From positions 62,001 to 126,000 of the forward strand of contig WFMF01000090.1 in the NCBI GenBank assembly GCA_011033025.1: DNA of 64,000 bases. The letters are read 5' to 3'. Shown here in pieces: positions 17,693 to 60,187 of the stretch. Under the pieces are notes generated by a model. It searched no databases. It was not told where the DNA came from and saw only the letters and a program-made list of their open reading frames with translations. Each line of letters starts with the position of its first letter. Position 1 is the first letter of the stretch. The stretch is from Beroe forskalii (lineage: Eukaryota; Ctenophora; Nuda; Beroida; Beroidae). Both the position numbers and the translations under genes were made by a program.

Positions 17693-18316
17693 CTTGAGAA
17701 ATCGATGGGGTGGAAATCCACCCCTTTGTCCAATAAGCCAGAGGTCGTTCGAAAAAAAAGTTTCATAAAATTTCAATCTGAATGATTTATTTCACTATTT
17801 ATATGGTTTGGTACGGTGAACAAAACTCCTTTTTCGAAAATATTTGTCCGTTCAGGATTTGGGGTGGAAACTCATATCACCCCCTTTGTCCAATATGAAG
17901 TATGAAATTTCAGATACTAACAAATAAGTTTCCATTGAAAGAATAACGTGCCAATGTGATTTTTGGCGATTTCTGTGACAAAATATTCATGCTAGAACTG
18001 GTTTTAACTTCGAAAATGGTATATATTCGGGATTTGGGGTGGAAAATCACCCCTTTGTCCAATATGTGGGTACAGGTCGAAATGACGAAAATCGATCTGA
18101 GGGCCATAAAACTGAATTGTACGTAATTCTTTCATTATATCGGCATTGTATAGACGCCTTTGAACAGAATTTACAAGTTTGGAAACTGGAAAGGTTTGGG
18201 GTGATTTTCCACCCCTGTGGCACCCGAAACCTGATTTTTGAAGGATGAAATCTTTTAATATCAGAATTCATGAAAAGAAAAAACACTTCGGTTACTGAAA
18301 ATATGTTTATGTGCAC
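17693..18316 (+). repeat. GGGGTGGAAA-type repeat, left arm copy 1
   Basis: A block repeatedly containing GGGGTGGAAAATCACCCC followed by TTTGTCCAATA. It recurs inverted at 22430-23010 in the same arm, and at 53105-53700 and 55190-55760 plus 56980-57025 in the other arm. The two copies in one arm form a nested inverted repeat of at least 600 bp around about 4 kb. Conserved ORFs inside simply follow the repeat. Confidence 0.7.
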
Positions 18317-21907: not shown

Positions 21908-22429
21908 TGACTGGGTCTTCTCAAGATCTACCTGCTTTGGTTCTCAGTGACGCGATTTTTGATGTTTGCTACTGCCGTTTGAATACTATCGGACAACCAT
22001 GCAGACTGAAGCTTGAATCTGCCATTGTAGACTCTGTCATATCGCTGTGCTGTGGTGAATACAATGTACCAGCAGTTAACTGTACCATGCTACCATAGCA
22101 TTACTGCGTTGGCCTGCCACATGACTGCTGTGGTACTGCTAAAGTGCCAAAGTGATGTCGGGGTGCCCCATTGGAATGTATCAGGGAGGGCAATACTAAC
22201 AGTCTGTGACAGCAATCACTACTTAGATGACCAAACAGCTTACCCCCTAGAATTCGTGGGCCGACTCTCCCCAGAGGTTCGAAAATACTTCTCATTACCT
22301 TCTTTGTTCCACAAATATCTTCAAATGCTCTTATTTGCAGAAGAAGAGCAATGACAACAACATAAATGACACCAAAACTATAATTTTTGTGCACATAAAC
22401 TCATAAACATATTTTCAGCTTTTCAGTAA

Positions 22430-23340
22430 CCGAAGTGTTTTTTTCATGAATTCTGATATTAAAGATTTCATCCTTCAAAAATCAGGGTCTCCGGTGCCAA
22501 AGGGGTGGAAAATCATCCCAAACCTTTCCAAACTTGTAAATTCTATTCAAAGGCGTCTATACAATGCCGATATAATGAAAAAATTACGTACAATTCAGTT
22601 TTATGGCCCTCAGATCGATTTTCGTCATTTCGACCTGTACCCACATATTGGTTTTAACTTCGAATATATACCATTTTCGAAGTTAAAACCAGTTCTAGCA
22701 TGAATATTTTGTCACAGAAATCGCCAAAAATCACATTGGCGTGTTATTCTTTCAATGGAAACTTATTTGTTAATTATCTGAAATTCCATACTTCATATTG
22801 GACAAAGGGGTGATTTTCCACCCCGAAATCTGAACGGACAAATATTGTCGAAAAGGAGTTTTGTTCACCGTACCAAACCATATAAATAGTGAAATAAATC
22901 ATTCAGATTGAAATTTTATGAAACTTTTTTTCGAAACGACCTCTGGCTTTATTGTACAAGGGGTGGATTTCCACCCCACCATATTGCCTGGTGCTATATA
23001 GGTCTCAAATTTGAGCTCCACAGAAATGAAAATTGGTACTATGAAAATTTAATCTTTCTGCTACAAAGCAACCGTTTTGACGCCATATATGTCGAAATTA
23101 TGAGTACAGTTAGCACGTCAAAGTGATCGAATTGAAATTTCGGATTTTGACCATTTTTGAGGCCACCGTGCAGCAAAACTATTTTATAAAATCCTAAAAT
23201 TTTTTCTCTTCTGAAAAAATTTGATCCTTCTTCTATGTATAAAGATAGTTTCCAGCAATAGAGAAGTTACCAGCTCAACGACAGTTAACCATACTTTGAG
23301 GGTCTATTTTCCACCCCTTTGGCATATCGGGGTTAAACGG
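22430..23340 (-). repeat. GGGGTGGAAA-type repeat, left arm copy 2
   Basis: Inverted partner of 17693-18316, extended by about 300 bp that match 52780-53110 of the other arm. Contains GGTGGAAAATCATCCC and ACAAAGGGGTGATTTTCC blocks. No gene content. Confidence 0.65.
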
Positions 23341-28207: not shown

Positions 28208-31200
28208 TCACACCGGTGTTTCGCCCATGACAAGGGGCCACGAGAAGAGAGATTTGAAGCGAGCAGCCAGCAGCTGGAACTCATCATCCTCTAGCACCTC
28301 ATCAGGAAGCTCGACTTGTTTCAGGGAATCTGTGCCTGGAAAAGGGATTAATTAGACTGCTGTTATCGTAAATAATCAACTTCACAGATGTTACACTCAG
28401 TGCAATACTATACTATTCATCGATAGCAGCCAGAATGCAAGTTGGCCATTTTTGACACTTAAAGGCTTCTGTGCAGTGAAATAGGCATCCCAGATGGTTG
28501 GAAACAGTCTTATATGAAAGAACTCATTGATATCTATCATTTGCAACAAAAATTATCAAAATCCGACCTTGCGTTAAGATTTTATGAGGTTAAAACCACC
28601 TAAAAAGTCGCTTTCGATTTGTGACATGCGACTCGATTTTCCCTCACAAAAGAGCTCATAACTCAAAAACTAAAAGAGATACAGCCTTGGGACCTATCTC
28701 AAAAATTCGAGAAGACCCTCTTACATAAGAAGAGTCTTCACTGGAAAGGTCAAGTCCTTCGTGGCCCGGTTGAGGTTATCGAAGGCGGTGTACGCGCGGT
28801 GTTGTCCCTCAGGGGTTAATCTTAGGCCCGTTTTCCGAAAACCGGGTTTTTGGATGTCGCGACTCAAATTTAGCCTCAAGACCTGACAGAAGCCAATGAA
28901 AACATATTTTTTGTACCAAGATGAAGCTGAAACTGTCAAGGATCACCCTCAAACCAAAAATTTTGCACAATGGAATGAATTTTGGCTCTCAGGTGAGGTT
29001 AAGTGGATGTCCTCCCGGAATTTCATCTTAAAATTTCCTTGTTTTTGCCTCAAATGAACGCAAGGTCAAAACTCCAAACTTTAAACGAAGAAGTATATTC
29101 TGACCTCTTGATTAATATACATTTTTTAAGAGACTGAAGCACCTTGTGTTAAAATGGCTAAAAACTATAAAATCCAGGTTTTCAGATGTCAAACACAGTT
29201 TAGCCTCAAGACAGCAACAAAGCCAATGAAAAACAGATTCTTGATGGCAAAAAATGAAGCTGAAACTATGGATCAATTTCAAACCCAAATTTTTCACAAT
29301 GGGATGGATTGTGACTCTCAGGAGAGGTTATGACTTCTCTCCGGGGATTTTATCAAAAATTCAGGCCATTTTTTAGCCTCAAATGGACAACGCAAGGTCA
29401 AACTCCCAAATTTGACCAAGGAAGTATATTTTGACCTTTTGATTGAGACTGATAACTTTGGGAGGACTCAAACACTTCTTTGATGTTTGAAGTGGCTAAA
29501 AACAGTAAAATCCAGGTTTTTTTGAGATGTCGCGACAAAATTTAGCCCTCAAAACAGCAACAAAAAGCAAGTAAAACATATTCTTGATACCAAAATGAAG
29601 CTGAAACTGTCTAAGATCACATCAAATCAAAATTTTACTCATTAGGATTTGTTGGCAGATCTCAGGTGAGGATAAGTGTCTTCCTTCCCATGTTTTTATC
29701 AAAAATTGGATTTTGTGTTAGCCTCAAATCGACAACGCAAGGTCACAAATTCTAAATTTTTGACCTAAAAGGTGGATTTTGACCTCCAGATCAAGAAAAA
29801 AAATACTTTTGGAGGACAAAAACACTCCCTTTGATGCATTAAGTGGCCAAAAGCTGTGAAATAAGGCATTTTTGCTCAAATCAGCCTCATATTTAACCTC
29901 ACAGCTGCCACAAATATGGGAATATCATGTTCAAAAAGTTTTTGGTCACCACAGATGTCCAAACTAACTTTTTATGTGAAAAGATTGGCATTATAACCTT
30001 TTTGAAAAAATGATGTATAAATAAGCCAATGTCACAAATTCCTTACATTCTGGCTGCTATCAATGTATTAGCGGTAAGAATAAATCAGCAGCCAGCAGGG
30101 GCGGAGGAGATCTGTGTACCTGTCTGTTCCGTGAGTTTGTGTACCTGTCTATTCCGTGAGTTTGTGTACCTGCCTGTTCTGTGAGTTTGTGTACCTGCCT
30201 GTTCTGTGAGTTTGTTAACCTGTCTGTTCCGTGAGTTTGTGTACCTGTCTGTTACGTGAGTTTGTGTACGTGTCTATTCCGTGAGTTTGTGTACCTGTCT
30301 GTTCTGTGAGTTTGTTAACCTGTCTGTTCCATGAGTTTGTGTACCTGTCTGTTCCGTGAGTTTGTGTACCTGTCTGTTCTGTGAGTTTGTGTACCTGTCT
30401 CTTCAGTGAGTTTGTGTACCTGTCTGTTCCGTGAGTTTGTGTACCTGTCTGTTCCGTGAGTTTGTGTACCTGTCTGTTCCGTGAGTTTGTGTACCTGTCT
30501 GTTCTGTGAGTTTGTGTACCTGTCTGTTCTGTGAGTTTGTTAACCTGTCTGTTCCATGAGTTTGTGTACCTGTCTGTTCCGTGAGTTTGTGTACCTGTCT
30601 GTTCTGTGAGTTTGTGTACCTGTCTGTTCCGTGAGTTTGTGTACCTGTCTGTTCCGTGAGTTTGTGTACCTGTCTGTTCTGTGAGTTTGTGTACCTGTCT
30701 GTTCTGTGAGTTTGTGTACCTGTCTGTTCAGTGAGTTTGTGTACCTGTCTGTTCTGTGAGTTTGGGGACCTGTCTGTTCCGTGAGTTTGTGTACCTGTCT
30801 GTTCCGTGAGTTTGTGTACCTGTCTGTTCTGTGAGTTTGTGTACCTGTCTGTTCCGTGGGTTTGTGTACCTGTCTGTTCTGTGAGTTTGCGTACCTGTTT
30901 GTTCAGTGAGTTTGCGAACCAGTCTATACAGTTGGTTTGTGTACCTGTCTGTTCTGTGAGTTTGTGTGCCTGTCTGTTCTGTGAGTTTGGGGACCTCGTC
31001 CAGGAGGAGGGATCTGAAAGCTGACACTGTGGTGACAGAGGGCGGCGTGTAGTACATCTTAAACTCCGATCCGTTACCCACCTCAAACGCCTGCGGAGTT
31101 GAAGCTTAAATAGTATCAAATTCAAAGCAGTGGGCCAAGCAATGACAGGACTTTAAATGAAACTGGGAATGGTGTATTTTGAATATGGGTCTATTCCTCT

Positions 31201-34200
31201 ATTATTCAATTTTTGCAAAAGAACTTCACACTGGATCTTTTATCAGAAGTCAACAGGTAACACACTTTGAACTATAACCTCTCATTCTTCAAGTCGAGAT
31301 ACAAGTATTTCACTTGTGATACATGGTACAGCGACACACACCATACAGACACCATGCATGACAGTTACCTTTCTGTAGATGCTGCCAGCATCGTTCCTCA
31401 AGAGAGAGTAGATGTCGCCTTCCAAGGAAGTGATCTTGTCAGCTGTTGACATCTTCACCACCGCCTCCTCCCTTCCCTCCTCCTCCTCAACCTCTTCATT
31501 ATTATTCCCTAACTGCTGGACTCTTCTCTTCAGCTGCGATTTGTACAGCGCTGTCTTGCCGTCGATGGCATGGGCTCGTTCCAGCAGGTCTGTTATCCGT
31601 GCCTTGGCTTCCTCATCAGGTAACAGGTCCTTTAGTTCTTCTCTCAGTTTGACGTTCAGGTAACGCTTGGGTTTGATCAGTTCGTTGAGGAAAGTCCGTT
31701 CCCAGGACAGGGTTACTCGCTTTATGGTGCAGTTGAGGAGGCTCCGGATTCGCTCCCACCTTCTGAAAAGCAGGGGAGCGGTGTACCGATCCTGCATCCC
31801 TTTCTTTACCGTGGACCAGTTCTTTTCGCCGTGTTTAGCTACCAGCTGCATCAACTGGAACGATTCCTCAACGGTCCAGTGCCGCGTGCCGCCGTTACTA
31901 CCCGATATTTCCTTAGCCATCAGGATCCTTACTCTCTCCCGAACTTGGGCACGAGTCCTCTGCTTCTGCACATCTTTGATCTTCTGCCAATCGTAGCCGT
32001 GCTCCGAGATAATAGCCATGATCTCAGCATCTTCCTCCTGAGTCCACTTGCCACGCTTAATCTGCGGACATATGGAGTACCTCCACCGCTGCAAGCACTG
32101 GTCGCTGTTCTTGTCGCCCAGGTAGTAGGACAAGTCAGCGAAGGACGCGTCCCCGTAGATCATGACAGCGTCCATGAGGTGCTTGTCGTCCGCCACCGAG
32201 AACGTCGTGGACACCTTCTTCCTCGTTCTCTGGTAGCGCTGGAGACACTGCCACGGCTTCCGGCCTGACTTCATCAGACTCGCCACCAACTGCCAGTTGT
32301 TGGTGCCGTGGATAGCCACCAGTTCCTCCATCTTCTGGTCCTCCTTGGCACTCCAATCCGCCTTCTTGACGGAGGGTGCCAGGTGGTTGTTCCACTGGTT
32401 GATGATGTCAGGACGGGATCTCCCGCAACCCAGCGACTTCATGGACTCCACCACCTCCTGCCAGTGGTGGTCGGTCCAGACATCAATGTCACTGTCAGAG
32501 AGGAGCTGGTCCAGAGTGGAGCTCTGCAGCTTCTCGTGGTACAGGTCGGCTTCGTCTTTTGCCTTCCTGAACAGAAACCGCTTAGTGGATCTTATTACTT
32601 TATCAATTGAAACAATGCGACTTCAGCAGTTATAAGCCTAGTTTGAAATAATTAACTATAACATCGAGTAATTGTAACTGCCAATTTCACTTTATACGAC
32701 ACAGATCTATCTGCCGATGAGACTTACGTTGACATGAAATCCGTCATTTTCTCGTCGATTATCGCAGATTTGAGGCATTCTTGAAGGTTGTTCCTGTCAC
32801 CTTTACCCCATCCGTAGTCGTAGAATAACACCTGTCGTAAGGTTAGGAAAAATATTATAATCGGGACACGCAACAGATCTTAAAGTGTCTTTTTGCTGCT
32901 AAAAATCAACGTGCGGGAAAGAAACTATCGAAAGAATCGAAAGATTAGTTACAAAAGAGCGAATAAAAGAATAAGCAGAACAAAATAAACATGAATATAT
33001 GTCAAACGAAACACCTGTCTAACAACAAAAACAATAAATACCATGCTGCGGGGGTTTTGCGAGAGTCTGATCAGGTCAGCGTTCATGAGGGGTCCATCCT
33101 TGTAGAAGTTGCTGAAGTAGGGCGGTTTGAACCGCTGCAGGGAGATCGTCTTGCAGAAGGGAGGCCGGGTTCCCAGGTTAGTTTCCATGTACCCACGGGA
33201 AATGAGGAACATGTGGTCCTGCTCGTCACTAATTTCCGTCTGAGAATATCATTCGTAAGAGGGTATCATCAGTCATTGAAAAAAGCTAAAAAGGAATAAA
33301 GCGTTACGAAGTGTAAACGTGTAAGCAAGTTGTAGAGCAAAACGCGAAAGTACCTGTTTTTCCTTGTTTTTGGCGAGTCTGCGCTCGATCTCCGCCGTCA
33401 TCTTGACGAGGAAGTCCTGGTATTGGAGGTTCATCTCGAGGACATCGTACAACTTCTCCACATCAATAGCGGCGTCAGACTCCACAAAGTTATGCATTTC
33501 TTTGAAGTAGTCGTCTTCCTCTTCCTCTTGTTGCTCAGGGTACGTTACACTGTCCTCTGCCTGTGGGGTGGTACGTTATACTGTCCTCTGCCTGTGGGGT
33601 GGTACGTTACACTGTCCTCTGCCTGGAGTGATACACGGTAAGGTTTACATACATACAATTCAGTTAATTCACACGGGCTCCTTCCGTCTGGGAACCCGTT
33701 TAAGTCGGGTTGAATGTGATACAAACAAAGGTAATATAAAGTTATAGTGACAGATAACCAAGAAGTTCATGTCAAAAGTGTGCAACAATAAATTGTAGTC
33801 TGCATTTGAGAATGATCTAAATCTTGAAAGTTAGTTACAATGTTGCCACCCCTATCACATTCCCACAAACCGTGATCGTGTGATCTTCCTGGAACTGATG
33901 GTAATCTGACCCTGGTATGTTATCCTCCATCACCACTCCACCACCCGCCTCTGTAGTCATGCTCTTAGCTAACACCGTGTCAATACGCCGGAGCAAGGCC
34001 TCGTTGTCTCGTAACATGGCATCTGTGTCAAGGTCCTCGTCTTCTCCAGCTATCTCCACATCTGCGGAGGATGGATCTGGAAGAGTTGCTGATGTGTCCA
34101 GGTCAGTGATGTCTTCTGGTGGAGTAGGTTCAGTTTTAATTGGAAGGAGTTGAGAGGGTAGGGCGTCTACTGGCTCCACTACAGGGCGGTCGTCATCTTG

Positions 34201-34603
34201 TTCCTGAAAAGTGGATATTATTGAGGTTATCAAAGTTACCAGTTGGAATGATCACGAAAATCAAAATTTATACAAATCAGAATGAACACAAGTCAAAGAC
34301 TGATCTGAGGAGTTTTTCAAAAGTATCAGCAATTCCTATTCAATTTCCTATAAGCAATCTTCCATTTTAATACTTTCCTGAACTTTATCCTGAAACTTAT
34401 CCTGACCTTTGAAGTCCTCCCATTTTAAAATCCTGGCTCCTATTTCAAACTCCTGGCTCCTATTTCGAACTAACCTGGTAGTTGGTGTCAGACATCAAGT
34501 CCTCCTCATCCATATCATCCATGTCCTCATCCTCCCCCAGAGCAGCATTGAGCCGCGCAATGTCCGCTTCCACATCCTTCAGGAACTGCTCGTGCGACTT
34601 CAT
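28208..34603 (-). CDS. SNAPC4: SNAPC4 (SNAP190) homologue, Myb subunit of snRNA-activating complex
   Basis: Eight exons chain in phase: 34475-34603 (start MKSHEQFLKDVEAD), 33871-34203, 33354-33560, 33042-33239, 32728-32831, 31369-32566, about 30970-31090 and 28208-28335 (ends GETPV-stop); about 775 residues. Exons 1-2 are acidic. Exon 4 has the conserved RFKPPYFSNFYKDGP segment (human: MKPYFKD). Exon 6 holds 4.5 Myb-type repeats, e.g. HWQEVVESMKSLG, ADWSAKEDQKMEELV, GKWTQEEDAEIMAII and RHWTVEESFQLMQLV, each with spaced Trp and an R-x-x-x-QC-x-R-type third helix. The last exon has RFKSLFSWPL. In the family, SNAPC4 binds the proximal sequence element of Pol II and Pol III snRNA promoters in the nucleus. 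It lacks the long human C-terminal tail. Exon 7 runs into a 25-bp minisatellite, so its donor is ambiguous; the acceptor of exon 3 is triplicated. Confidence 0.85.
28790..29960. repeat. Tandem repeat of about 335 bp in the last SNAPC4 intron
   Basis: About 3.3 diverged copies with a period near 331-345 bp. Shared blocks include GCCTCAAGAC, GCCAATGAAAA, AAATGAAGCTGAAACT, CTCAGGTGAGGTTA and ACGCAAGGTCA (for example 28867, 29210, 29550, 29880). Divergence increases towards the right. No coding content. Confidence 0.7.
30113..30994. repeat. 25-bp minisatellite starting at SNAPC4 exon 7 donor
   Basis: About 35 units of 25 bp. On the minus (gene) strand each reads ACTCACNGAACAGACAG then GTACACAA, so each holds a donor-like CAGACAG^GTACAC. 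The array begins inside exon 7 and runs into the intron. The first unit has GC (^GCACAC) at 30969; the first in-phase GT donor is 75 bp further on (exon end 30895). Low-complexity ORFs through it on both strands are by-products. Confidence 0.9.
33541..33627. repeat. 31-bp acceptor-junction triplication, SNAPC4 exon 3
   Basis: Three copies (starting at 33541, 33572 and 33603) of a 31-bp unit that on the gene strand reads CCCCACAG^GCAGAGGACAGT, i.e. the polypyrimidine end, AG and first exon bases of exon 3. The copy nearest the exon gives an in-frame acceptor at 33560/33561. Confidence 0.8.
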
Positions 34604-36433
34604 CTCATATTCATCTCACTATCTCAACATGGCACCTAGCATCAGTAATACGGAGATTAGTTCGGGTTAATCAATAATGGTGCGTAATGCATAATTTTGT
34701 CGTTATTAATTAATCATCGCCATAATTTGGTAATGAAAGTGCAAGATTGGTATTTGCAACTTCAGATACCTATATGTTCTAGCTTATTATTCAATTGTAG
34801 CATAGAAACACCACCGTAAACGATTAACAAAGGTAAGAATCAGATAGTTTATAAATTATACGTTATTAAATTAATAGTATGAATATAGTATAACTTAGAG
34901 TTACTCATAATACTAAACTGACTTAAATATAAATTATAGTGATAAATTTACAAGATTAATATCTGTACACACTAGACAATATGGACCCGCATATATTACC
35001 ATCTGTACAATGTACATGTATTATAAATACACTAAAAATGAATAAAATATTGTGAAAAATAAATATTAATTGGCTGCCATAAAAATAAATACTTCCGTTC
35101 AGTGTCATAAAAATGTCAGAGTATGCATTGCTTATTAAAAAAACTGTCATAAAAATTTAAAAAGGTTTTAGCCAGTTCTAATATAATTTAAAAAGGTCGT
35201 ACGAAAAGGTCGTGGTAATCTACTTCTCCCCGATCTCCATGGTTCACACTTACACTCCGTCACGGCCCACTCGTACTTCCAGATATATAAGTAATATGTA
35301 ATATTGAATGCGTCATTGGTCTGCTCAGAGCCAGGCACTATCCCTTGACCCTTCTTAGGAGAATTCTCCAACGAACCTCATTCCCGAATGGTTCTTCTCT
35401 GTACACAATCACAGCACAGTTCACACCACATAACCACCTTCAACTCTTCACACCTCAAAGCCTTGGGCAAGCTTTAGGTTTCACACCTTAAAGGCCTCCG
35501 TATTTTTCACACTTCATAGGCCTAGACTTTGACAAGCTTTTAACACCTCAAAGGCTTGGAGAAGCCTTTCACACTTTGGTCACACGCGTGAACACCAGGG
35601 TGTAAAGCTTGGGAGATTGCGGAGAGTGTAATTATTATGTACTCAGATGTACTTTAAATTATAGCTTTAAGAATTATTTTAATGCCCTTTGTTGCTCTAT
35701 GAATTTATTCATTTAATAAAGCAATGAGAACAGCTATGACCATTGGTAACACAAGGGCGTTACAACGTACCATCTAAGCTATGTGTCTCCACAATGGGTA
35801 GCACACGTGTGAGTTCATAACATAGAATAAATAATAGCTGAACAAGGGACGAGGGTAGTTGTGTTTCAGCTGATGGTCATGATAGCCATAAGTAAGTAAG
35901 TACCAAAACACATATTTCAAACTGCCAATTGCCATAAAGAAAAACATCCTTGATGCATATTGCATATGGATATCAAAATATCCGACTTGTTCACTTCGAT
36001 GTGGATCACTTTGACCGGTTGAGTTTGATGGGAGTGTCCTCTGCGCTGGAGTTGGTCAGACTGTTCCCAGACACAATGGAGACTGTGCTACTAGACCTGG
36101 TCATTTCTCCTGAAGAGATGGACTGTTAGGAAGATGTTGTAAAGAGAGTGAAAAGCAGACAAAGCATCAAAGTAGTAGGAACTACCCCTAACAGAGTGAC
36201 AGCTATTATGTGTTCAGCGCCTGACAGCTATCCAGGTAGGTACTAAGGTAGTGTGCGCTTCTTGGAAAGCACTGTGACAAATGGGGAGAACTTTCATATG
36301 ATAGGTACTTAAAAGGTCTGGGCTGGAGTGGAAATACTGTGAAATAGTTTTCATGGTTGAATAGCTGTAAGAGGACGATAGGCCGTCAAAACATGTTGGA
36401 AATTCCGGAAAAGGGGAAAATTTAAATAAATCA
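34604..36433. other. Intergenic region between SNAPC4 and the coiled-coil gene
   Basis: It should contain the SNAPC4 promoter and the 3' UTR of the upstream minus-strand gene. AT-rich. Imperfect tandem units around TTCACACCTCAAAGGCCT occur at 35440-35600. I see no ORF with domain support and no identifiable core promoter motif. Confidence 0.35.
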
Positions 36434-39400
36434 TCAACCTGATACGACTTTAGCGTACTCTTCAAATAGTTGCTCGAGACTGTTCGCTAAAACAGGTCCG
36501 AAATCATCTAGACTTAGTATCTTCGCAAGTTGACCCTTCCATACTTCCGTAATACTCCCTGAAATAGGGGCGCGGTTGGCATATGTGGTGAGGAATGCTT
36601 TGATTACACGCATTAGTATAATCAGACATTAGGCATACCTTTCTAGCGAGACTATTCGATCAGAAAAACCTGACTCATTAGCAATGTTTACATTGGTTGA
36701 GCTCATGATGTCTAACCTGACTCATTAGCAATGTTGACTTTGGTTGAGCTCATAATGTCGTGGAAGTCTGCCTCACTGAGTTGAAGGATGGAGGAGGAGA
36801 GGAGCTTAGCTCTGTCGTACTCGTGACTACTCAGACTACTAGCCACTACCCGCTTATCACGCTCCTGGTAAAAGGGAATAGGGGTGCGTTTTAAAGGGAG
36901 GGGAGGGTGTGTTTGATTAGTTAGGGAAGATTATCACTGATCAGGGACCGTCTGTGAATAAATCTACCACAAGCGTATGCTAATCTCTTCAAAAATGTGT
37001 TGTCTATAGTCCAAGAGAGGGAGGGGTGAGTTTATGGTGTGTTTTATTTACACAAAGGTTTTGTTGAACAAAACAAAGGAGAGTTCTTTAGCAAAGTTTT
37101 TACTTTTAAATATTAATGACAAAATAACGACTTTATTACTCCCACAAACCACAAAACAAGTTACCACCGATCTAATATGCGCTCTGAATGAAAAGGCGGT
37201 CGTTATGACGTCATTTACACCGTGCGCGCTGCCAAATTGTCGCAAATAACCGCCTGTTATTCGTGCGCGGGGTCTAAGACATCACATAACGTACCTCTTT
37301 GATTTTGCCGACTATCTTCTTGATAGCCTGCCGGATACACTTCTCCCACTGCAGGTTCCTCTTGCTCAGAACACTGACTTTCTTCTGCAAGCCCTCCTCT
37401 AGCCCCCGGAACTGCTTGCCTTGGTCCTCCAATTGGTGGGTTGCTAATGCCTGTAATGGCGATAGGTTAGGGAGAATTAGATGCAGTTGCATAATGCATA
37501 CATATGAATACTGAACATGGAAAAAAGGGACGAGAGTGGCATGGACCTTACAGAACATTTCAACTCGTACTGTTTACGACAGATGCTGGAAGGTATCAGC
37601 TGCTTGTGCTAACAACCTCTTGTCAGCTGCCTAGCAGTTGATATCTAAATGTGAAGTAGGGTCCTGAATAGCGTTTATACTGTATTTGCAAAACAGAGAC
37701 AGAATAAAGATTAAGGAAAATAATGCCTCTCATAAAAACCAGCAGCCAGTGTCACACTACCTGTAAATCAGCCACCATCCTATCAGTCCCCTCCTGCTAC
37801 CTGCAGATCAGCCACCATCCTATCAGTCCCCTCCTGTTACCTGTAAATCAGCCACCATCCTATCAGTCCCCTCCTGTTACCTGTAAATCAGCCACCATCC
37901 TATCAGTCCCCTCCTGTTACCTGTAAATCAGCCACCATCCTATCTCCAGATTCCTAAATCAGCCACCATCCTATCAGTCCTCCTGTTACCTTTGCGTCAG
38001 CCACCATCCTATCAGTCCCTCCCTCTAGTACCTGTTACTTGGCCACCATCCTATCAGTCCCTCCTGTTACCTGCACCTGTATCAGTCCCTCCTGCGCCAC
38101 CATCCTATCAGTCCCTCCTGTTACCTGGGATGCCACCATCCTATCAGTCCCCCTCCTGGACCTTCAGCCACCAGAGTCCATTTAAACTCGTACCATCCTT
38201 TTTACCTGGAGATCAGCCACCATCCTATCAGTTGTTATCCCCCCTGTTACCTGTAAATCAGCCACCATCCTGTTACCTGTAAATCAGCCACCTATCCTCC
38301 TGTTACCTGTAAATCAGCCACCATCCTATCAGTCCCCTCCTGTTACCTGTAAATCAGCCACCATCCTATCATGTAAATCAGCCACCATCCTATCAGTCCC
38401 TCCTGTTACCTGTAAATCAGCCACCATCCTATCAGTCCCTCCTGTTACCTGTAAATCAGCCACCATCCTATCAGTCCCCTCCTGTTACCTGTAAATCAGC
38501 CACCATCCTATCAGTCCCCTCCTGTTACCTGTAAATCAGCCACCATCCTATCAGTCCCCTCCTGTTACCTGTAAATCAGCCACCATCCTATCAGTCCCCT
38601 CCTGCTTCCTCGTCAGACTCTTGAGCTCCTTCGTCCTGCTATCCAGAACAGTCTTACAGTCTTCGTAACTTCCCTTCACCTGTTCCAGATTCACTTTGGC
38701 GTTACTCAGCTGAGCTTTCAACGTTTCTATGTAGTTCTTCCTGTTGTCAGCCAAGTCCTGCACCTTCTTCACCTTCCGGCTCATCTCTTCCATCTTGTCA
38801 CTTAGCTCGTTTTTGCTGGACTTGTATTTGGACGCTTCGCCCCTCAGGTGCTCAGCGTCAGATCGCTGCTGACGGACAATGCGCTCACTTCGCGTCAACT
38901 TCTCCTCCAGCTTCATTACCACATCTACCTTCTCTGCCAACTCTTCCTTCAACTCTGGAGAGGAGGTGATGTTATGGGTGCTGTCCACATTCGCTCATAA
39001 TTCAACCAAAATTAAAACAACTCTGGAGAGGTGATGTTATGGGTGCTGTCCACATTGGCTACGAACTCACATGGAGCAATTAATATGCGCTCAAATAAAA
39101 AGGCTGTCGTAATGACGTCATTTACACTGTGGTCTGTGCTCGCTGGCAGGTTGTTGGAAATAACCGCATATTATCCGTTCGCGGGCAATGAGCATAGAAG
39201 CATACAACAGGATTCCCGAGAAAACATTTAGTTGGAGGGTTAAAAGGTACTTATATCGTAGAACGTACTGGTAACGACAGCGTTGGTGCTGGTAACTTGA
39301 GCGGTGAGCAGGTTATTCTGGTGATTTAGCTTCTTGATCTCGTTAGTCTTATCCTGGAGAATTGCTAGCTCGCTCTGTCGCAGACCAGAAGTTTGGAGCT

Positions 39401-42400
39401 CTGATATCTGCAAAATAAGTGTTAATCAGTGTCTTCTAGAACTTAAATCAACTGGTCTCACATTACTCAGCAAGCCTCGCAGATCTCACCGATCTCCCCT
39501 TGCTGACTTGGTCTCATATTGCTAACATCGTCTCATATTTCTCACCAGGTCTCAATTAGTCTCACATTGCTCACCTGGTCTCACACTGCTCACCTGGTCT
39601 CACATTTCTCACCCGGTCTCACACTGCTCACCAGGTCTCACATTGCTCACCAGGTCTCACATTGCTCGCCAGGTCTCACATTGCTCACCAGGTCTCACCA
39701 AGTGTCACATTGCTCACCTGGTCTCACATTGCTCACCTGGTCTCACATTGCTCACCAAGTCTCACATTGCTCACCTGGTCTCACATTGCTCACCAAGTCT
39801 CACATTGCTCACCAGTTCTCACATTGCTCACCAGGTCTCACATTGCTCACCAGGTCTCACATTGCTCACCAGGTCTCACATTGCTCACCTGGTCTCACAT
39901 TACTCGCCAGGTCTCACATTGCTCACCAGGTCTCACATTGCTCACCAAGTCTCACATTGCTCACCTGGTCTCACAATGCTCACCAGTTCTCACATTGCTG
40001 ACCAGTTCTCACATTGCTCACCAGGTCTCACATTGCTCACCAGGTCTCACATTGCTCACCAGGTCTCACATTGCTCACCAGGTCTCACCAAGTGTCACAT
40101 TGCTCACCAGGTCTCCCAGGTCTCACATTGCTCACCAGGTCTCCCAGGTCTCACATTGCTCACCTGGTCTCCCAGGTCTCACATTGCTCACCTGGTCTCC
40201 CAGGTCTCACATTGCTCACCTGGTCTCCCAGGTCTCACATTGCTCACCAGGTCTCACCAAGTGTCACATTGCTCACCAGGTCTCACCAAGTGTCACATTG
40301 CTCACCAGGTCTCCCAGGTCTCACATTGCTCACCAGGTCTCCCAGGTCTCACATTGCTCACCTGGTCTCCCAGGTCTCACATTGCTCACCTGGTCTCCCA
40401 GGTCTCACATTGCTCACCAGGTCTCACATTGCTCACCAGGTCTCACCAAGTGTCACATTGCTCACCAGGTCTCCCAGGTCTCACATTGCTCACCTGGTCT
40501 CCCAGGTCTCACAATGCTCACCAGTTCTCACATTGCTCACCAGGTTTCACATTGCTCACCTGGTCTCACATTGCTCACCAGGTCTCACATTGCTCACCAG
40601 GTCTCACATTGCTCACCAGGTCTCACCAAGTGTCACATTGCTCACCTGGTCTCACATTGCTCACCAAGTCTCACATTGCTCACCTGGTCTCACATTGCTC
40701 ACCAAGTGTCACATTGCTCACCTGGTCTCCCAGGTTTCACATTGCTCACCTGGTCTCCCAGGTCTCACATTGCTCACCAGGTCTCCCAGGATTCACATTG
40801 CTCGCCTGATTTCACAAGTCTCACCTGGTCTCGGAGTGCCTGTGCCTCTTCATGAGCAAGTCTCACATCCTCGTTGAGACCTGCCACCAGGTTCTGCGAG
40901 ACAGAGACCTGCTTGAGAGCGGCTGACAGCTGCCCCTCCAGTCGGGAAACCTTGCCCTCCTCCTCTGCTATGTCCTGTAACAGTAAGTGCAGGGAGATGA
41001 TTGCAATGAGGGGAATAAAGACAAAGAAGGGGCCTATCTGCAAGAATTATGAGATTGGATTATGTCTACATAGTTGTTAGTCGTCATACTAATATTTCTA
41101 TGCGTTCTACCACAATGCCCCATTTCCAGTTCCACCTCTTACCTTAGCATGTCGATGCTTTGCTTTCGTAAGAACAGCTATCTGCTGGTTCAGTGATGCC
41201 ATCCGTATTTTCATTGCAGCCGGAGGCTTCTGTAGCACCTTGACAGGAGGCTGGGAGATGGTCTGAATGCCAGCACTTCTGGTACTGACGATCCTCACTT
41301 TCTTACTTGATTTCACAGGAGTTTTAGTTGGAGCAAGCACTTCAGGAGGAGGAGGGATATTCTCTTGGTTTTGAAGAGTCAGTTTGTCCAGGAGATTCAT
41401 GGTATTCTGGAAGTTTGTCGTTTCCTTCTGTCGAACCTGCAGGAATGAAAGTTTAGTGATGTATTGGTCATCAAATTTGTAAAAAATCTGAGTCACTGTG
41501 GACCAATAAAGGATCTTTCACATATTACGTAATCAATTTTTCCCTCTCCCCTCCGTAATCGAGCAGGGTCTCCCTCACTTTTGGTAAATAAAACAAAAGA
41601 TTCGCATCGAGCAGGGTTCGAACCTGCGCGGGCATTGCCCATCAGATTTCAAGTCTGACGCCTTAACCACTCGGCCATCGATGCTCTGCACTACTTCAAG
41701 TTACCATTTTAATAAAAAGAATGTAATTCACGACTTGCATGAACCAAAGTAGTGAACGGGATTTCAACAATCCCTGTTGACAGTATTCGTGAGTTTTGGG
41801 GTGGCAATACAAAAGTTTCGGACAATTATTGCATATCCTTGGAGCAGACCCGGTCCATCAACCATCAAAGTTTGCTGTGCTTGACTTGAGCAGCTAAGAC
41901 ATATGTTATCTGCAATCATTTCGGTTTAATAAACTTTATCAAGCAGTCACCGGGTCGAAATTTTAAATTCCGACAGTTGTAACAACTAACATTTTTGGCA
42001 AAAGTTCAACGAAAAACTGCATACCGTGAGAACTTTTTGAAATAAATTTGCGAGTGCGCGCGCGTCGTGCGCGTTGACAGAGGGCTGAAAAACAGACTTT
42101 GAAAGAATAAATGTCGTAGCGGCCTCCACGAACTAAGGGTTTTCTGTGCGACCGGCCCAATGATTAATTGGATTTTCAAGCGTATCGATGATTTCAGATA
42201 TAATATATCTTTTGTGTGGAAGTTGATATAATAAACTTCCACACAAAACAGTGACAGATATAAATTCCGGAGAATAATTCTAAATGACCTCCAAATCGTA
42301 GATTCTGTGAAATTCAATCTTGTGCAAAATGATATTATAAAACTCAACGCTGTCAAGTTTGCCTTTATAGCTTTATATTCTCCTAAACTGGGGACAACAG

Positions 42401-45344
42401 ATAGGTCATCTCAGTACAAAAACGCAGTTCATATAACTCACCAGTGAAATTGAATCTGTAGACGTTGCAACTGTGACGGTTTGTCTACTAGTTGTCTGCG
42501 TAGTCCTGTCAACCATATCACACTCGCAAGTCTCTAACTTTGCTACTTTGCTCTGTTCACTGTGTAACGCTGCCAGTAACCTGATGTTCTCTGAATTCAG
42601 TCTCTCCGAGTCACTTGATATCTCCTCTATCTGGGAGAATGTGTTACTATGCAAGGTATAGATTGATAACTTAATAAATAGGCATGTTAACTCTGGTCAT
42701 TGACCAATCGCAGCTGGCTCGGCTCTCTTTCATATCAAATATCCTGGGAATGAATTTTAATTTCAAGTGACTTATCGCAAAATAAGCCCGGATATTTTGC
42801 CCTAACTGCTTTTGTAACACAGGCACTTCCCACGCACCTTATCTCGGAGAATCTCCAGTTGGAGATTACACCCGCACACAGACTGGTGATTGGCTACTCG
42901 CAACTTCCTCTCGCACTCCTGCTGATCCACCAATAGAGCTGCCTTCATTTCTGAGACACATTTCATTTGGTAACGTTGTGATGGATTATAACGAAGAACA
43001 ACCCTACAACAATAATGAATTTAACGGAGCTAAGCATCATAATCTACAAAATGTATATAATCCTATCCATCCGTCTTAGTAGTTGATCAGCTATAATAAT
43101 ATCAATTTCATCTGATCGTCAGGCTAAAAAGTATTACGATAATATAGGGTTTTAACCATTGAAGGTGTTGATATCGGTAACGCGTTGTAGCTTCAGTTTG
43201 TCGTTTTCTTCTTCCACGCCATGTAGTTGACGCTTCATCTTAGAACACAGTCCTTTGTAGTGTTGCAAGTCAACCCAAACCTGAAAAGGTTAATTAACGT
43301 TTATCGTGGTGTTAAGATGACCAGTTGTTCTGTGATAATTGGAGTTAATTATAGAAGCCTTTAGGCTTCTATAATTCGTCATTTTGCTGTTATGAAATGT
43401 TTCCCTTAGAAGAAGAACATTTCATACCGACACAATGACGAATTTAACAACTGACAGTAGTTGGTACTAACCGTCTCGCTATCCTCATGGCGGAGAGGTT
43501 GGGGAGCTTGGACATCCCTGAAATCAAGGTGAAGTTCCTTCCATCTGTCCTTGTCCACTATCTTCAGCTCATCCAACACTTCACTGAGCGGGGAATAAGT
43601 CGGGTTTCACAGAATCCAGTAGAAGAAGATATCATCCCCAAAAACAAAACCCCAAAAGCCCTTTTTCGATATCCACCGGCTGTTTATAGGGGTTCCCCCA
43701 ACATCGTGAGTATATCATGGACACTGAGCTAGACACAGGCCCCACATTGAAATACTAAAGATACCAACCTAAGGTAATCCTGGAGGGAAGTCATTCGATC
43801 TAGTCGGTTGTCGTGAACCTCCTGTAGCTTGGTGAGAGCCACGTCCTTTTCGTGGCAGTTAATCTGGAGTTGCTTGATGAGCTTCTGACACCGGTCCATG
43901 TCCTCCGTACTACCCGTCACGTCGGCCAGGATTATATCCATCTAGTGGAAGGGATGTTAGTGATTTATTAACCATCGGCCAGGATTATATCCATCTAGTG
44001 AGGGGTACATGTGTTAGTAGTGAAGTGAGTTCTTAGGTGAAAGGGGGCGAGGCTTCTTATTGATTCGTTAAATTTCCAATTTTCAATTTACGGTAATTAC
44101 TAATTGGTAAACTATAATTTCTAATGGAAGGAAATGATTTCATTATTGGCCTTTTCAGCGAAATAACTCACCACATCTGGAATGTCGCGGAGTGCAATAG
44201 GTCGGCTGAGGTAGTCAACACACCGGTCCTTGACTTGGGACACGAGGTCCAGGTGGGTGTCGTGTTCTGCTGCCTTCTGGTCACGTGAGTGTATTGTCTC
44301 CCGCAGGAGCACGCATTCCTCACATTCCTTCTCCCGCAACCTCTCGTACTCCGACCTGCAGACAAGAGGAGCTGTCGCGGAGTTCAACAAATTCTCAGAT
44401 TTCTATTTCTAAAATCCTCCCCAAACAGTCGGGGTACATAATCCTCTTACTCTGCTAGGTTTAGCTATTGTCATCAATATAGAAGTACGATGGATTAATG
44501 AACATCACTGTTGATGATATCACTATATTGCAGCAGAATCCTGAAAAATACACTTTAAAAGTTAAAAAGACTACCTACAGTAACCGCAGTAACGACTCCC
44601 ACCTGAGGCGTTTTTCTTCCGTAACAAGGGCAGTAACTTTGTCCTCCAACTGGGAGATGGTAAGGTGGAGTTGCTCCATGGACTTCTGGTGCTGCTTCTC
44701 CTTACCGTGCTGTTCCCGCTCCAACTCCAGCAGGTCTTGCTGGGTAGACTGCACCATCCTCTCACTCTGTAGGGAGCCAATTATCATATCGAGAATATTC
44801 TTATTGAGTAATCGGTGGTAAATATGGAAATTTACGAATTGGGCCGAAATTGAGCCGGTATTGAGCCGGAATTGAGCCGAAATGATCAGTGGTTACATTT
44901 AGCTATGCTATTGATGGGTGAACAATAGGGCACCTTTTAATGCAGCTTGAAGAGAAGTTTGCAAGCATCTTTCTAAAATTGTTGAAATGATGAAAAGAGC
45001 CTTGTACTCTTGTTATAATCAGCCTGTTCAGTTATCGTGAGTTTCGAGCCCATCTTGCCCTGTCAGTTTGCCATTGAAATAACAAATTCGACCCTCGATG
45101 CTGAATACGAACATGGGACTACAATACATTTTTGATTCACCTTCTCAAGAGCCCGTAGCGCCTTCTCAGCACTAGACTCCGCCAGTTCGAGTTTCTGCCT
45201 GAGGAGGGCCGTATCCTCCTTCCTATCAGATATATTCTCCTTCAACTCCGCTATGATGAGCTTGTGAGAGTCCAGTTCGCTGTCTCGGGTGTCTAGCAGG
45301 CTCTGCAGCCGAGCTGTCTCTGCTGCCTGCTCCTCGTGATGTCT
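36434..45344 (-). CDS. Long coiled-coil protein, unidentified; 5' end not located
   Basis: Fifteen exons join in perfect phase: 45141-45344, 44603-44766, 44172-44355, 43769-43941, 43472-43583, 43157-43280, 42838-42950, 42442-42630, 41143-41436, 40825-40974, 39269-39407, 38569-38954, 37295-37450, 36717-36864 and 36434-36558 (stop). That gives about 885 residues without a start codon, so at least one 5' exon is missing. It is mostly heptad-rich coiled coil, with a non-coiled, Pro/Lys-rich segment (PPPPEVLAPTKTPVKSSKK), a RWKELHLDFRDVQ motif and a C-terminal helical stretch ILQLSEADFHDIM. Such architecture is common in centrosome and cilium proteins; that is inference and I cannot assign a family. 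Several exon junctions are duplicated or start minisatellites (see separate entries). It sits tail-to-head upstream of SNAPC4. Confidence 0.75.
36672..36765. repeat. 47-bp donor-junction duplication
   Basis: On the gene strand the exon end, AATGAGTCAG^GTTAGA, is followed 47 bp later by a diverged second copy ending AATGAGTCAG^GTTTTT. Only the first is used in my model (exon end 36717). The copy repeats about 40 bp of exon sequence within the intron. Confidence 0.75.
37165..37275. repeat. Intronic repeat with TGACGTCA, copy 1
   Basis: About 105 bp containing TAATATGCGCTC, AAAAGGC, ATGACGTCATTTACAC and AAATAACCGC, repeated in the same orientation at about 39078-39185. Both copies lie in introns of the coiled-coil gene. 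The palindrome TGACGTCA matches the CREB/ATF site, but with no evidence of function. Confidence 0.55.
37758..38568. repeat. 40-bp minisatellite starting at a donor site of the coiled-coil gene
   Basis: About 20 units, regular 40-bp copies nearest the exon and more broken ones in the middle (37930-38280). On the gene strand each unit carries GGCTGATTTACAG^GTAACAGG: the last bases of exon 38569-38954 and its donor. The array fills most of the intron up to exon 37295-37450. Confidence 0.9.
38950..39062. repeat. 68-bp acceptor-junction duplication
   Basis: The acceptor of exon 38569-38954 (CACCTCCTCTCCAG^AGTTG on the gene strand) is repeated 68 bp upstream as CACCTCTCCAG^AGTTG, together with about 30 bp of its upstream intron. 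The outer copy would read into non-exonic DNA. Confidence 0.75.
39078..39185. repeat. Intronic repeat with TGACGTCA, copy 2
   Basis: Second copy of the block at 37165-37275, about 1.9 kb away in a neighbouring intron and in the same orientation. Confidence 0.55.
39520..40824. repeat. 19-bp minisatellite starting at a donor site of the coiled-coil gene
   Basis: About 1.3 kb of units of mainly 19 bp, with interspersed shorter variants. On the gene strand each gives GAGACCTG or GAGACCAG followed by ^GTGAGCAATGT, copying the donor of exon 40825-40974 (CGAGACCAG^GTGAGAC). Long Ser/His/Leu-rich ORFs on the plus strand (39519-40877) are products of the repeat. Confidence 0.9.
41507..41600. mobile_element. 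End fragment of the TTA-type element, next to the tRNA gene
   Basis: GGATCTTTCACATATTACG followed by TAATCAATTTTT and CCGTAATC matches the left end of the element at 55764-56976, but no right end is present before the tRNA gene. A truncated, diverged copy. Confidence 0.5.
41603..41684 (-). tRNA. tRNA-Ser (anticodon UGA)
   Basis: An 82-nt cloverleaf on the minus strand. The acceptor stem GCATCGA pairs perfectly with TCGATGC. The A box is TGGCCGAGTGG and the B box GGTTCGAACCC. The anticodon loop CTTGAAA sits in a TCAGA/TCTGA stem, giving anticodon TGA. A long variable arm (TGGGCAATGCCCGCG region) marks it as serine type. A T-rich run follows the gene, as expected for a Pol III stop. It lies inside an intron of the coiled-coil gene, same strand. 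No mismatches in the stems, so it looks functional. Confidence 0.92.
42206..42246. repeat. Perfect hairpin, 15-bp stem
   Basis: TTTTGTGTGGAAGTT, a 9-base loop, then AACTTCCACACAAAA. Located in an intron of the coiled-coil gene. Confidence 0.7.
43350..43442. repeat. Nested palindromes in an intron
   Basis: ATTATAGAAGCC-TTTA-GGCTTCTATAAT is a near-perfect palindrome. It is followed by ATGAAATGTT and AACATTTCAT arms around a short loop, and by outer AATTCGTCATT / AATGACGAATT arms. Probably a small palindromic MITE. Confidence 0.55.
43922..43999. repeat. 53-bp acceptor-junction duplication
   Basis: The acceptor of exon 43769-43941 (CACTAG^ATGGATATAATCCTGG on the gene strand) is repeated 53 bp upstream, including the first 20 or so exon bases, which then break off into intron. 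Confidence 0.75.
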
Positions 45345-53104: not shown

Positions 53105-53700
53105 CTATAACCTGGGCAATATGGTGGGGTGGAAATCCACCCCTTTGTCCAATAAGCCAGAGGTCGTTCGAAAAAAAAGTTTCATAAAATTTCAATCTGA
53201 ATGATTTATTTCACTATTTATATGGTTTGGTACGGTGAACAAAACTCCTTTTTCGACAATATTTGTCCGTTCAGGATTTTGGGGTGGAAAATCACCCCTT
53301 TGTCCAATATGAAGTATGGAATTTCAGATAATTAACAAATAAGTTTCCATTGAAAGAATAACACGCCAATGTGATTTTTGGCGATTTCTGTGACAAAATA
53401 TTCATGCTAGAACTGGTTTTAACTTCGAAAATGGTATATATTCGGGATTTGGGGTGGAAAATCACCCCTTTGTCCAATATGTGGGTACAGGTCGAAATGA
53501 CGAAAATCGATCTGAGGGCCATAAAACTGAATTGTACGTAATTTTTTCATTATATCGGCATTGTATAGACGCCTTTGAATAGAATTTACAAGTTTGGAAA
53601 GGTTTGGGATGATTTTCCACCCCTTTGGCACCGGAGACCCTGATTTTTGAAGGATGAAATCTTTAATATCAGGATTCATGAAAAAAACACTTCGGTTACT
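53105..53700 (+). repeat. GGGGTGGAAA-type repeat, right arm copy 1
   Basis: Counterpart of left-arm copy 2 and inverted partner of 55190-55760. Outer flanks (AGGAGCCCGTTT near 52758, GGGCTTCTATCACAATTG near 57243) are also inverted, so the full nested inverted repeat may span 52720-57260. Confidence 0.65.
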
Positions 53701-55189
53701 GAAAATATGTTTATGAGTTTATGTGCACAAAAATTATAGTTTTGGTGTCATTTATGTTGTTGTCATTGCTCTTATTCTGTGAATAAGAGCATTTGAGGAT
53801 ATTCGTGGAACAAAGAAGGTAATGAGAAGTATTCTCGAACCTCTGGGGAGAGTCGGCCCACGAATTCTAGAAGGTTAGCTGCGTTGGTCATCTAAGTAAG
53901 TAAGTAGTGATTGCTGTCACAGACTGTTAGTATTGCCCTCCCTGATACATTCTAATGGGGTACCCCGACATCACTTTGGCACTTTAGCAGTACCACAGCA
54001 GTCACGTGGCAGGCCAACGCAGTAATGCTATGGTAGCATGGTACAGTTAACTGCTGGTACATTGTATTCACCACAGCACAGCGATATGACAGAATCTACA
54101 ATGGCAGATTCAAGCTTCAGTCTGCATGGTTGTCTGATAGTATTCAAACGCTAGTAGCAAACATCAAAAATCGCGTCACTGAGAACCAAAGCAGGTAGAT
54201 CTTGAGAAGACCCAGTCACTGCCAGAGAGTTATGGTGGTTCTTAAGCAGTGCTATAGCTTTATTTCAATAATGTGACTGCATCATCGATGTTATATCATG
54301 ACAATTCAATTGACAATAAGGCACTTAAAAACACTTTTGAAACAGGGCACCTAACTGTTATATCACTGCAAAGCTGGTGTGGTAGTAAAGCAGCAGTGTC
54401 TTTGCAGCACCACACCAATAGTTTTACTGTCGACTGTATATCGTATACCTCAGTCATTCCATAAATCTATTGGATTGGCAATTCACGTGTTCCGACGTCA
54501 TACTGGCACTGCTATAAAAGTAGTAGCTGTAACGGTGCTGCCCTTGCATGCAGTACTTAACCTCCGTGACACAGCCGTTGTGCTAGGTCACCGCCGCTAC
54601 CGCAGCAATGCTGTGGTAGTCCTGATACTTCTGAGTGGCTCTTCGGTGATACTGTTATTACTTTCAAATAAAACTGACATGGTTTTTCATGAGCACTGCC
54701 ATTAAACATATGTGAAGCTGGGAGGCTGCCATGACCATTCCGCATCTAGACCATGTGCAGCAAAGCTGAAAAAAGACCGGACACTGCCGTTTTACTGCCG
54801 TAGCACGTCCAATCTCCAGTATGTTAGTATTCTTATAGTATTGCTGGGGCTTGCCATGAAACAGGCTTACTTGAAAGTTGAAGCTGCCGTTGTACCCTCT
54901 ATCTTATTCTCTTATCACTGAGTTACTGCTGCATCATAAAAATGGCAGAACTGCTGTGGTACTGCTGTGGTACTGCTTAGTACCAAAGAGATGACCGGAG
55001 TGCTCTGACATCTGGGAAGCCGCTACTGTAAGTCTGCCAGAGCAATAACCTAGAATTTTTGGTCTGACTCACCCCAGAGGTTCAGAAATCCTTCTCATTT
55101 TATTTTTTGTATCCTCAAATGCTCTTATTCACAGAATAAGAGCAATGACAACAACATAAATGACACCAAAACTATAATTTTTGTGCACA

Positions 55190-55760
55190 TAAACATATTG
55201 TCAGTAACCGAAGTGTTTTTTTTCATGAATTCTGATATTAAAGATTTCATCCTTCAAAAATCAGGGTTTCGGGTGCCACAGGGGTGGAAAATCACCCCAA
55301 ACCTTTCCAGTTTCCAAACTTGTAAATTCTGTTCAAAGGCGTCTATACAATGCCGATATAATGAAAGAATTACGTACAATTCAGTTTTATGGCCCTCAGA
55401 TCGATTTTCGTCATTTCGACCTGTACCCACATATTGGACAAAGGGGTGATTTTCCACCCCAAATCCCGAATATATACCATTTTCGAAGTTAAAACCAGTT
55501 CTAGCATGAATATTTTGTCACAGAAATCGCCAAAAATCACATTGGCACGTTATTCTTTCAATGGAAACTTATTTGTTAATTATCTAAAATTTCATACTTC
55601 ATATTGGACAAAGGGGTGATATGAGTTTCCACCCCAAAATCCTGAACGGACAAATATTTTCGAAAAAGGAGTTTTGTTCACCGTACCAAACCATATAAAT
55701 AGTGAAATAAATCATTCAGATTGAAATTTTATGAAACTTTTTTTTCGAACGACCTCTGGC
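55190..55760 (-). repeat. GGGGTGGAAA-type repeat, right arm copy 2, split by an insertion
   Basis: Continues at 56980-57025 on the far side of the element at 55764-56976. Without that insertion it reads through as the copy at 17693-18316 does. Confidence 0.7.
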
Positions 55761-58741: not shown

Positions 58742-60187
58742 GGGCCGGATTACACAACCGTTTAAGGTCGACCTTTCGCCCTAGGTGCTCCTTAAAACGG
58801 CCCAAACTTCAGCTTAAGGTCCACCTTAAAATTCCGTATTACCCAATCTGCTCCTTTAAGGCGATTTTAAAGGTGCTCCTTAGCGAGTTAGGTCGACCTT
58901 TTAAATTCCCGAAAATTCGGTATTACCCAATCTACCTCGTCCTTTAGTTGGTCCTTTAGCTGCTCCTAAACGGCGAATTTTACAGGTACCTCCAGCTCGT
59001 CCTTAAAACCAGAGGTGCTCCTCAAACCACACGTGTTATATGTGATAATAATTCGGAGTTACATCGCTGTCACAAGAGAGAGCAGATAAATTTCAATGGT
59101 TCATGTTAGCTGGAGTTTGCAGTCCTGCTGTAGATCGGTCCGAAAGCAAAAACAGCCCAAATCTCTAAACAATATACCACCATAATGTGGTGTGTTTCAT
59201 TGGAATTCCTGAATTCGTAAACGGTAAAACACTAAAACGTAAACAGTAGAACCGATAATAAGCTCTGGAATTTGGGTATGTCTCCCATATAAACGGCTCT
59301 GAGTGACGTCACAGATCTAAACGTCAATTTTTCTGTATCCTAAACCTAACCATAGCCCTAACCAAACCCTAACCTTAATCCTAACCCCAACCCTAACAAA
59401 TCCTGACCGTAACCATAACCCTAACCTAGTCCTTAAAGCGCTAGGTGCGCTTAATTATATTTTTTTCTGAGTGACGTCATTGTCATAGATAATAAAGCTC
59501 CTGTTTACATGGGACTGACCGTAATTTGTGTACAAAATTTTTATTTATATTCAATATCAATTCAGCAATTAGGGTAAATAATCAGAGCTGGCAGTGACAG
59601 GCGACAGCTTTCATGCGTTTGGGAGCTGTATGCAGTATGAACTTATGAATGCCCACTTTGGGCTCCAATCAATAAAATTGAGAATGAGTCCTGATAAGGC
59701 ATGTTTATTTTTAACGAGCCCCATCACATGCATTGCAGATATTTACTCACCAGCAGTAAACTCCATTTCACTGGCACCGAGCACATTCAAACCCATCTAT
59801 AATTTCATTTGCTAACAGATTCAATTTGCGTCTAATTTCTAAATCTAATTTCACTTCCATATGACTTTCATATATGGAGGTTTCTACCATATATGGAGCT
59901 GCTCCTTAACTGAGCTGCTCCTTTACGACCTGCTCCTAAAAATTTAAGGAGGATCTCCGTCTTTCAATTTGGGGTAATCGCAGATATTGTCAAAGGAGGA
60001 GCTGCTCCTAAGATGCTCCTTAGCGTTTGAGGACTGACCTCCTCCTTTACGGTTTAGGTCGACCTTTACGAATTGTGTAATTCCTTGATTTTGCTAAGGA
60101 GGACGTACAGGAGGTGCTCCTTAGAGCTCCTCCTTAAACTTAGAGCCTCTTAGGTCGACCTAACACGAAAATTGTGTAATCCGGCCC
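58742..60187. mobile_element. TAA-flanked MITE with GGTCGACC/CTCCTT repeats, right arm only
   Basis: A 1446-bp element with ends GGGCCGGATTACACAA and complement, flanked by TAA (58739-58741 and 60188-60190). The left arm has the empty site (GCAATCTAATGAGG, complement near 14190). Both subterminal regions carry many AGGTCGACCTT and TGCTCCTTA motifs. The middle (59340-59430) has a degenerate CCCTAA-type stretch. It lies only about 30 bp upstream of the right gene copy's start codon. Superfamily inferred as PIF/Harbinger from the TAA target; no transposase. Confidence 0.8.

Follow-up and report, generated by a model that had tools for sequence, protein, structure and literature searches.

Eight splice junctions in two neighboring genes, a SNAPC4-like gene and a coiled-coil gene, are accompanied by local copies of the sequence that spans or adjoins them. 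These junction copies belong to the known kind of repeat called 'mirages' in amphioxus, with relatives in human genes. They are probably ordinary tandem duplications filtered by selection, among which those spanning a junction were tolerated.

Copied splice junctions in two adjacent genes

The region examined is a 64-kb window, that is, the whole stretch of DNA that was analyzed, from one assembly of a 216-Mb genome with animal-type genes. The SNAPC4-like gene is modeled as a single open frame over eight exons (Table 1), encoding 805 amino acids when exon 7 is ended at the first unit of the array found there. Human SNAPC4 (7xur, 7zwc) aligns with residues 192-590 of the modeled protein (E 2e-29 for 7xur), which correspond to parts of exons 3-6, and exons 1, 2, 7, and 8 were placed by frame and splice signals. 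Identity to the human protein in the Myb region amounts to 29% (71 of 242 aligned residues). The model of the coiled-coil gene comprises the last 15 predicted exons, with the 5′ end outside the model, and searches with the exon pieces and the joined protein gave no Pfam family above the cut-off. The exon phases had been described as intact in the original prediction, and both gene models indeed read as single open frames.

Other repeats are present in the window. By eye, two open frames that resemble each other closely, one on each strand (11493-13549 and 61014-62870), look like a mobile element or dispersed repeat. Inspection by eye also showed four related copies of an open frame (DFILQKSG...), distributed over both strands (18007-18267, 22407-22700, 53422-53718, and 55229-55489). 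TRF reports a dense set of arrays with 9- and 11-bp units (TCATGTCAG-like, TGACCCCCTGC, and AGGGGGTCAGT) inside 2 kb at 15902-17663, and interstitial CCTAAC-like repeats, a telomere-like sequence, at 59339-59426.

Table 1. Genes, exons, and local repeats of the two-gene region (window coordinates)
Feature	Position	Strand	Evidence
SNAPC4-like gene, 8 exons	28208..34603	-	single open frame; human SNAPC4 alignment
SNAPC4 exons 1-4	34475-34603, 33871-34203, 33354-33560, 33042-33239	-	
SNAPC4 exons 5-8	32728-32831, 31369-32566, 31090 to inside 25-bp array, 28208-28335	-	
25-bp minisatellite, SNAPC4 exon 7 end	30113..30996	-	TRF
31-bp x2.8 near-triplicate, SNAPC4 exon 3 acceptor (33560) and ~22 nt of exon	33539..33625	-	TRF, self-match
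20-bp x2.8 repeat adjoining SNAPC4 exon 1 donor (34475)	34417..34474	-	TRF, self-match
Coiled-coil gene, last 15 exons (predicted)	36434..45344 and beyond	-	open frame to stop
47-bp x2 duplicate, coiled-coil exon 14 end and donor (36717)	36667..36759	-	TRF, self-match
40-bp minisatellite, coiled-coil exon 12, modeled donor 38569	37758..38604	-	TRF
65/68-bp-spaced copy, coiled-coil exon 12 acceptor region (acceptor 38954)	38955..39061	-	self-match, not TRF
19-bp minisatellite from coiled-coil exon 10 donor (40825), ~8 nt of exon shared	~39511..40824	-	TRF
tRNA-Ser (anticodon TGA), within coiled-coil gene intron 41437-42441	41603-41684	-	
53-bp-spaced copy, coiled-coil exon 4 acceptor (43941) and ~21 nt of exon	43919..44002	-	self-match, not TRF
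Sole local repeat of the two genes away from junctions (intron interior)	44838..44879	-	TRF, self-match

Tandem arrays were called by TRF, and spaced copies by a self-match scan over all offsets between 15 and 200. The seven junction copies of the original prediction are all present by these two methods; they include the three minisatellites of 25, 40, and 19 bp, which TRF detects and the longest of which reaches up to 1.3 kb. The self-match scan recovered the seven independently of the earlier list and added the 20-bp repeat, giving eight junction copies with unit lengths of 19, 20, 25, 31, 40, 47, 53, and 65/68 bp. The affected junctions are five donors and three acceptors in three of the four scan settings. 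The copies, their edges, the open frames, and the splice-site scores given below are direct observations.

The arrays had been said to start at a 5′ splice site, which is not supported. The copied units mostly straddle the junction, and their edges are scattered, lying anywhere from 0 to ~43 nt within the exon. The 40-bp unit, for example, consists of the final 36 nt of exon 12 and 4 nt of intron. The 20-bp repeat only abuts its donor and is free of exon sequence. The 65/68-bp copy holds a 3-nt indel; its ungapped 65-bp match ends 6 bp short of the acceptor, and the match continues across the indel. Scatter of this extent argues against a process fixed at the splice site and in favor of ordinary duplication followed by a filter.

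Local duplications and exon borders

Across the whole window, 874 raw self-matches fall into 35 clusters, while sequences with bases permuted inside 100-base blocks gave 0 matches in five of five trials. In the two genes, the clusters that touch a junction are 8 of 9 when 17 of 20 or 20 of 24 bases have to match, 8 of 8 at 24 of 30, and 7 of 9 at 18 of 20, a setting in which the 19-bp array stopped short of its own donor. Junction contact was counted with a tolerance of 6 bp, chosen after the 65-bp match had been seen to end 6 bp off; at 3 bp this match is uncounted.

If clusters fell at random wherever exons stay unbroken, 1.75 of nine would be expected at junctions and at least eight would occur with a probability of ~1e-5, taking 8 of 9 as observed; both genes were chosen for the pattern, so this and the other clustering figures state the surprise at its maximum. 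The 44.9 kb of the window that lie outside the gene spans hold 26 clusters. From that density, 1.1-1.8 clusters would be predicted at the 63 junctions, where 8 are seen, and 5.6 in intron interiors, where 1 is seen. Relative to the out-of-gene sequence of the window, junction clusters are ~4-7 times as dense. Clusters lying wholly within an exon are absent from the two genes in all four scan settings, which is consistent with a loss of exon-only duplications. Within these two genes, the clustering at junctions is above simple expectation.

The excess also exceeds what a simple filter predicts, and it could point to a mutational process aimed at exon ends, in which breaks or slippage at composition steps between transcribed exons and introns, nucleosome edges, or R-loops would make junctions hot spots of duplication. 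The number of junction clusters, their density relative to sequence outside genes, and the fact that donors and acceptors are both hit are all in line with such a process. However, the unit edges are spread over the exon ends instead of being fixed at the junction, the region was selected for its pattern, and the control exons at 0.2-5.2 kb of the same window (eleven exons, eight of them shown joining in one frame) have 0 clusters at 20 junctions. R-loops in particular are disfavored by the finding that richness in G on the sense strand, which they would require, is not common to the units, the 25-bp unit being rich in A and C. A process directed at exon ends is considered unlikely.

Local duplications are common in this genome, as 30 kinase loci elsewhere in it contain 33 local duplication clusters, although in many of these loci a single frame covers the whole domain, which leaves too few junctions for a test. 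In a genome so rich in duplications, with 35 clusters in the window itself and none of the 20 control junctions affected, two striking genes might simply have caught the eye in a large scan. Selection after the fact does not readily explain why so few duplications lie in the intron interiors here, although these are the larger target, nor why the same type of structure is reported for several lancelet genes (PMC3087553, PMC3902484), and it appears a rather improbable account. One kinase gene (L019, 2268-2349) has a 36-bp tandem duplication across its coding end and stop codon, a single case that extends the same logic to a non-splicing boundary and is counted for the filter. At another kinase locus (L028, 1432-1494), ACCATCTACCACACC repeats lie shortly upstream of the apparent acceptor of a kinase exon.

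Base composition may contribute to the pattern. Six of the eight junction units have a GC content of at least 0.48 and the other two 0.38 and 0.35, compared with 0.37 for introns and 0.50 for exons. Since six of the eight are exon-like in GC, a compositional preference may add to the filter. Against this stand the two junction units that are not GC-rich, while the lone non-junction repeat, at 0.55, is.

Frame and strength of the copied splice sites

Donors were scored with a small and partly circular matrix built from the same 20 donors of these genes, whose minimum score under it is 4.8. The 40-bp array has 14 CAG/GTAACA sites (the slash marks the exon-intron border), including the exon-side one, all scoring 8.3; its exon-side units follow the consensus, and of the two units at its distal end one deviates. 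None of the 44 GT sites past the exon-side donor of this array keeps the frame. Donor scores in the 19-bp array are 10.9 on the exon side, 7.7 for the CAG/GTGAGC copies, and 9.4 for the best of the copies. Of 121 GT sites past the exon-side donor, a single one maintains the frame, namely CTT/GTGAAA, which lies 9 nt on and is no unit donor. The 47-bp duplicate has an exon-side donor scoring 10.5 and a copy scoring 6.3 that is located behind a stop, and 0 of its 3 further GT sites keep the frame. The acceptor copies end in AG 31, 62, 53, and 68 nt upstream, distances of which none is divisible by three. Because the distal unit donors and the acceptor copies break the frame, the copies, if used, would act mostly as decoys. 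From frame and score, the exon-side sites look to be those normally spliced, and the copies look like mostly harmless decoys whose use would lead to a frameshift or an early stop.

For the 25-bp array of SNAPC4 exon 7, the donor had been placed at GAG/GTCCCC (30995). This placement is wrong, since the site scores -1.3 and leaves no spare base, whereas the terminal exon requires one from exon 7. The possibility that the array is itself a terminal coding exon or 3′ UTR was also rejected, because the last exon has a good acceptor and a stop codon. Division of 25 by three leaves one, so that just every third unit is in phase, and a stop-free reading in the right frame is obtained at units 1, 4, 7, and 10. 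Of these, unit 1 offers a GC site scoring -1.3, unit 4 the donor CAG/GTACGC, with G at +5 and a score of 6.6, and units 7 and 10 the standard donor CAG/GTACAC, scoring 3.6. As unit 4 provides the best in-phase donor, exon 7 probably ends there, at 30895 (30895/30894), which would make units 1-4 coding.

The 40- and 19-bp arrays agree with the view that each array presents a multitude of competing donors, but this view is questionable for the 25-bp array, where the standard donor falls below the minimum score of the gene donors (3.6 versus 4.8). Abundant intact donors could reflect selection for redundant or decoy splice sites that makes splicing robust or regulated, as may be compared with human IFI6. 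The 14 CAG/GTAACA sites of the 40-bp array and the 18 CAG/GTGAGC and 28 CTG/GTGAGC sites of the 19-bp array speak for such selection, as do the in-frame units 7 and 10 of the 25-bp array and the IFI6 precedent (PMC4526556). The in-frame units and the 40-bp copies that equal the exon-side donor in strength also count against the filter. A position-by-position test of the 25-bp array, the one array to which it was applied, gave no clear signal of donor conservation: over 35 units the mean number of mismatches is 1.8 at donor positions and 2.0 elsewhere, and the GT itself has 0 and 1 mismatches, yet 10 of the 25 positions have 0. The exon-near units 3-4 of this array are divergent. With donor positions that vary about as much as the rest in the 25-bp array, distal unit donors out of frame at the 40-, 19-, and 47-bp sites, and CTG/GTGAGC outnumbering CAG/GTGAGC in the 19-bp array, selection on redundant splice sites, which the original prediction had entertained, is not indicated and is very unlikely.

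The arrays could also be newly gained introns of the kind produced when an exon segment bearing AGGT is duplicated in tandem (Rogers model), given that the consensus 25- and 40-bp units, and many 19-bp units, run from GT to AG. A similar arrangement exists in fission yeast, where 24-bp AGGT repeats (cited in PMC4974935) supply both intron ends. These resemble the present arrays in having a repeated AG/GT-bearing unit of similar size, but here the intron runs past the array to a separate acceptor. The next exons after the 25-, 40-, and 19-bp arrays start at 28335, 37450, and 39407, respectively. Intron gain with duplicated AGGT at both ends was rejected because the acceptors lie beyond the arrays, in non-array sequence, and this origin is scarcely credible.

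Relation to mirages and likely origin

The original prediction held that a shared mechanism would be new; the phenomenon itself has already been described as amphioxus mirages (PMC3087553, PMC3902484). Mirages are tandem repeats of intron-exon boundaries, reported for Adh3 and the globins BflGb6 and BflGb9 (PMC3087553), with PGBD5 and troponin C added later (PMC3902484). The published units measure 10-72 bp in Adh3 and up to ~160 bp in the globins, and many, although not all, copies retain the AG/GT signals (PMC3087553, PMC3902484). Boundary copies that escape homogenization, length polymorphism, and somatic instability are further features of mirages, which are reported to be without interference in regular splicing (PMC3087553). 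On the escape of boundary copies, the 25- and 40-bp arrays give a mixed picture. The present repeats have in common with mirages the local, minisatellite-like copies that span a boundary, the involvement of donors as well as acceptors in several genes, and the range of unit lengths. They differ from the mirages so described in that eight occur in two adjacent genes, with lengths of up to 1.3 kb, and in that one array probably contributes coding sequence. Regular splicing is reported in amphioxus, whereas here the intact frames are read from sequence alone.

Turri et al. reportedly described in 1995 a minisatellite in human IFI6 (6-16) that gives rise to multiple donors. Downstream repeat units of the IFI6 minisatellite are used as donors (PMC4526556). 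Like IFI6, the arrays described here are exon-end minisatellites with potential donor units, the 25-bp SNAPC4 array being the closest; the use of downstream donors is reported for IFI6, while the SNAPC4 array was judged by frame only. In human genes located in segmental duplications, De Grassi and Ciccarelli (2009) described exon-intron boundaries that carry tandem repeats (PMC2812944). Those repeats likewise have ~30-bp units over exon-intron boundaries and alter gene structure, but as described they belong to recent paralogs, have RNA support, and form short arrays (average of 4 units).

The origin of mirage-type repeats considered probable begins with small, ordinary tandem duplications, some of which would happen to take in an exon end. 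A duplication entirely within an exon would usually break the protein and be lost, while one spanning a junction would leave the exon-nearest splice site intact and be tolerated. With one copy held by selection, the pair would remain recognizable for longer. GC-rich, exon-like segments are possibly more prone to duplication, which would favor exon edges over AT-rich intron interiors. Three of the duplications would later have expanded into minisatellites, and the splice site of SNAPC4 exon 7 has probably come to lie four units inside the array, so that residues encoded by the repeat are added to the protein. Under the filter account, we infer the neutrality of the copies, the splice sites in actual use, and the history of array growth.

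A more far-reaching reading, which we regard as improbable, is that in a non-lancelet lineage a junction-directed process makes exon borders the birthplaces of minisatellites, and that the SNAPC4 array pushed its splice site outward and became coding. Mirages have been described gene by gene in the lancelet accounts, and eight in two neighboring genes represent a dense case. Lancelet genomes measure about 500 Mb; if this figure holds, a host whose genome has 216 Mb and whose SNAPC4 is so distant from the human protein more likely belongs to another lineage, which would broaden the known range of mirages. If the excess were genome-wide and the host lay outside the lancelets, duplication hot spots at exon borders would extend beyond a single lineage. 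Such hot spots, if real, could be tested as a source of new splice sites, of longer exons, and of introns of variable length, and SNAPC4 exon 7 provides a concrete site at which to look for a minisatellite becoming coding sequence.
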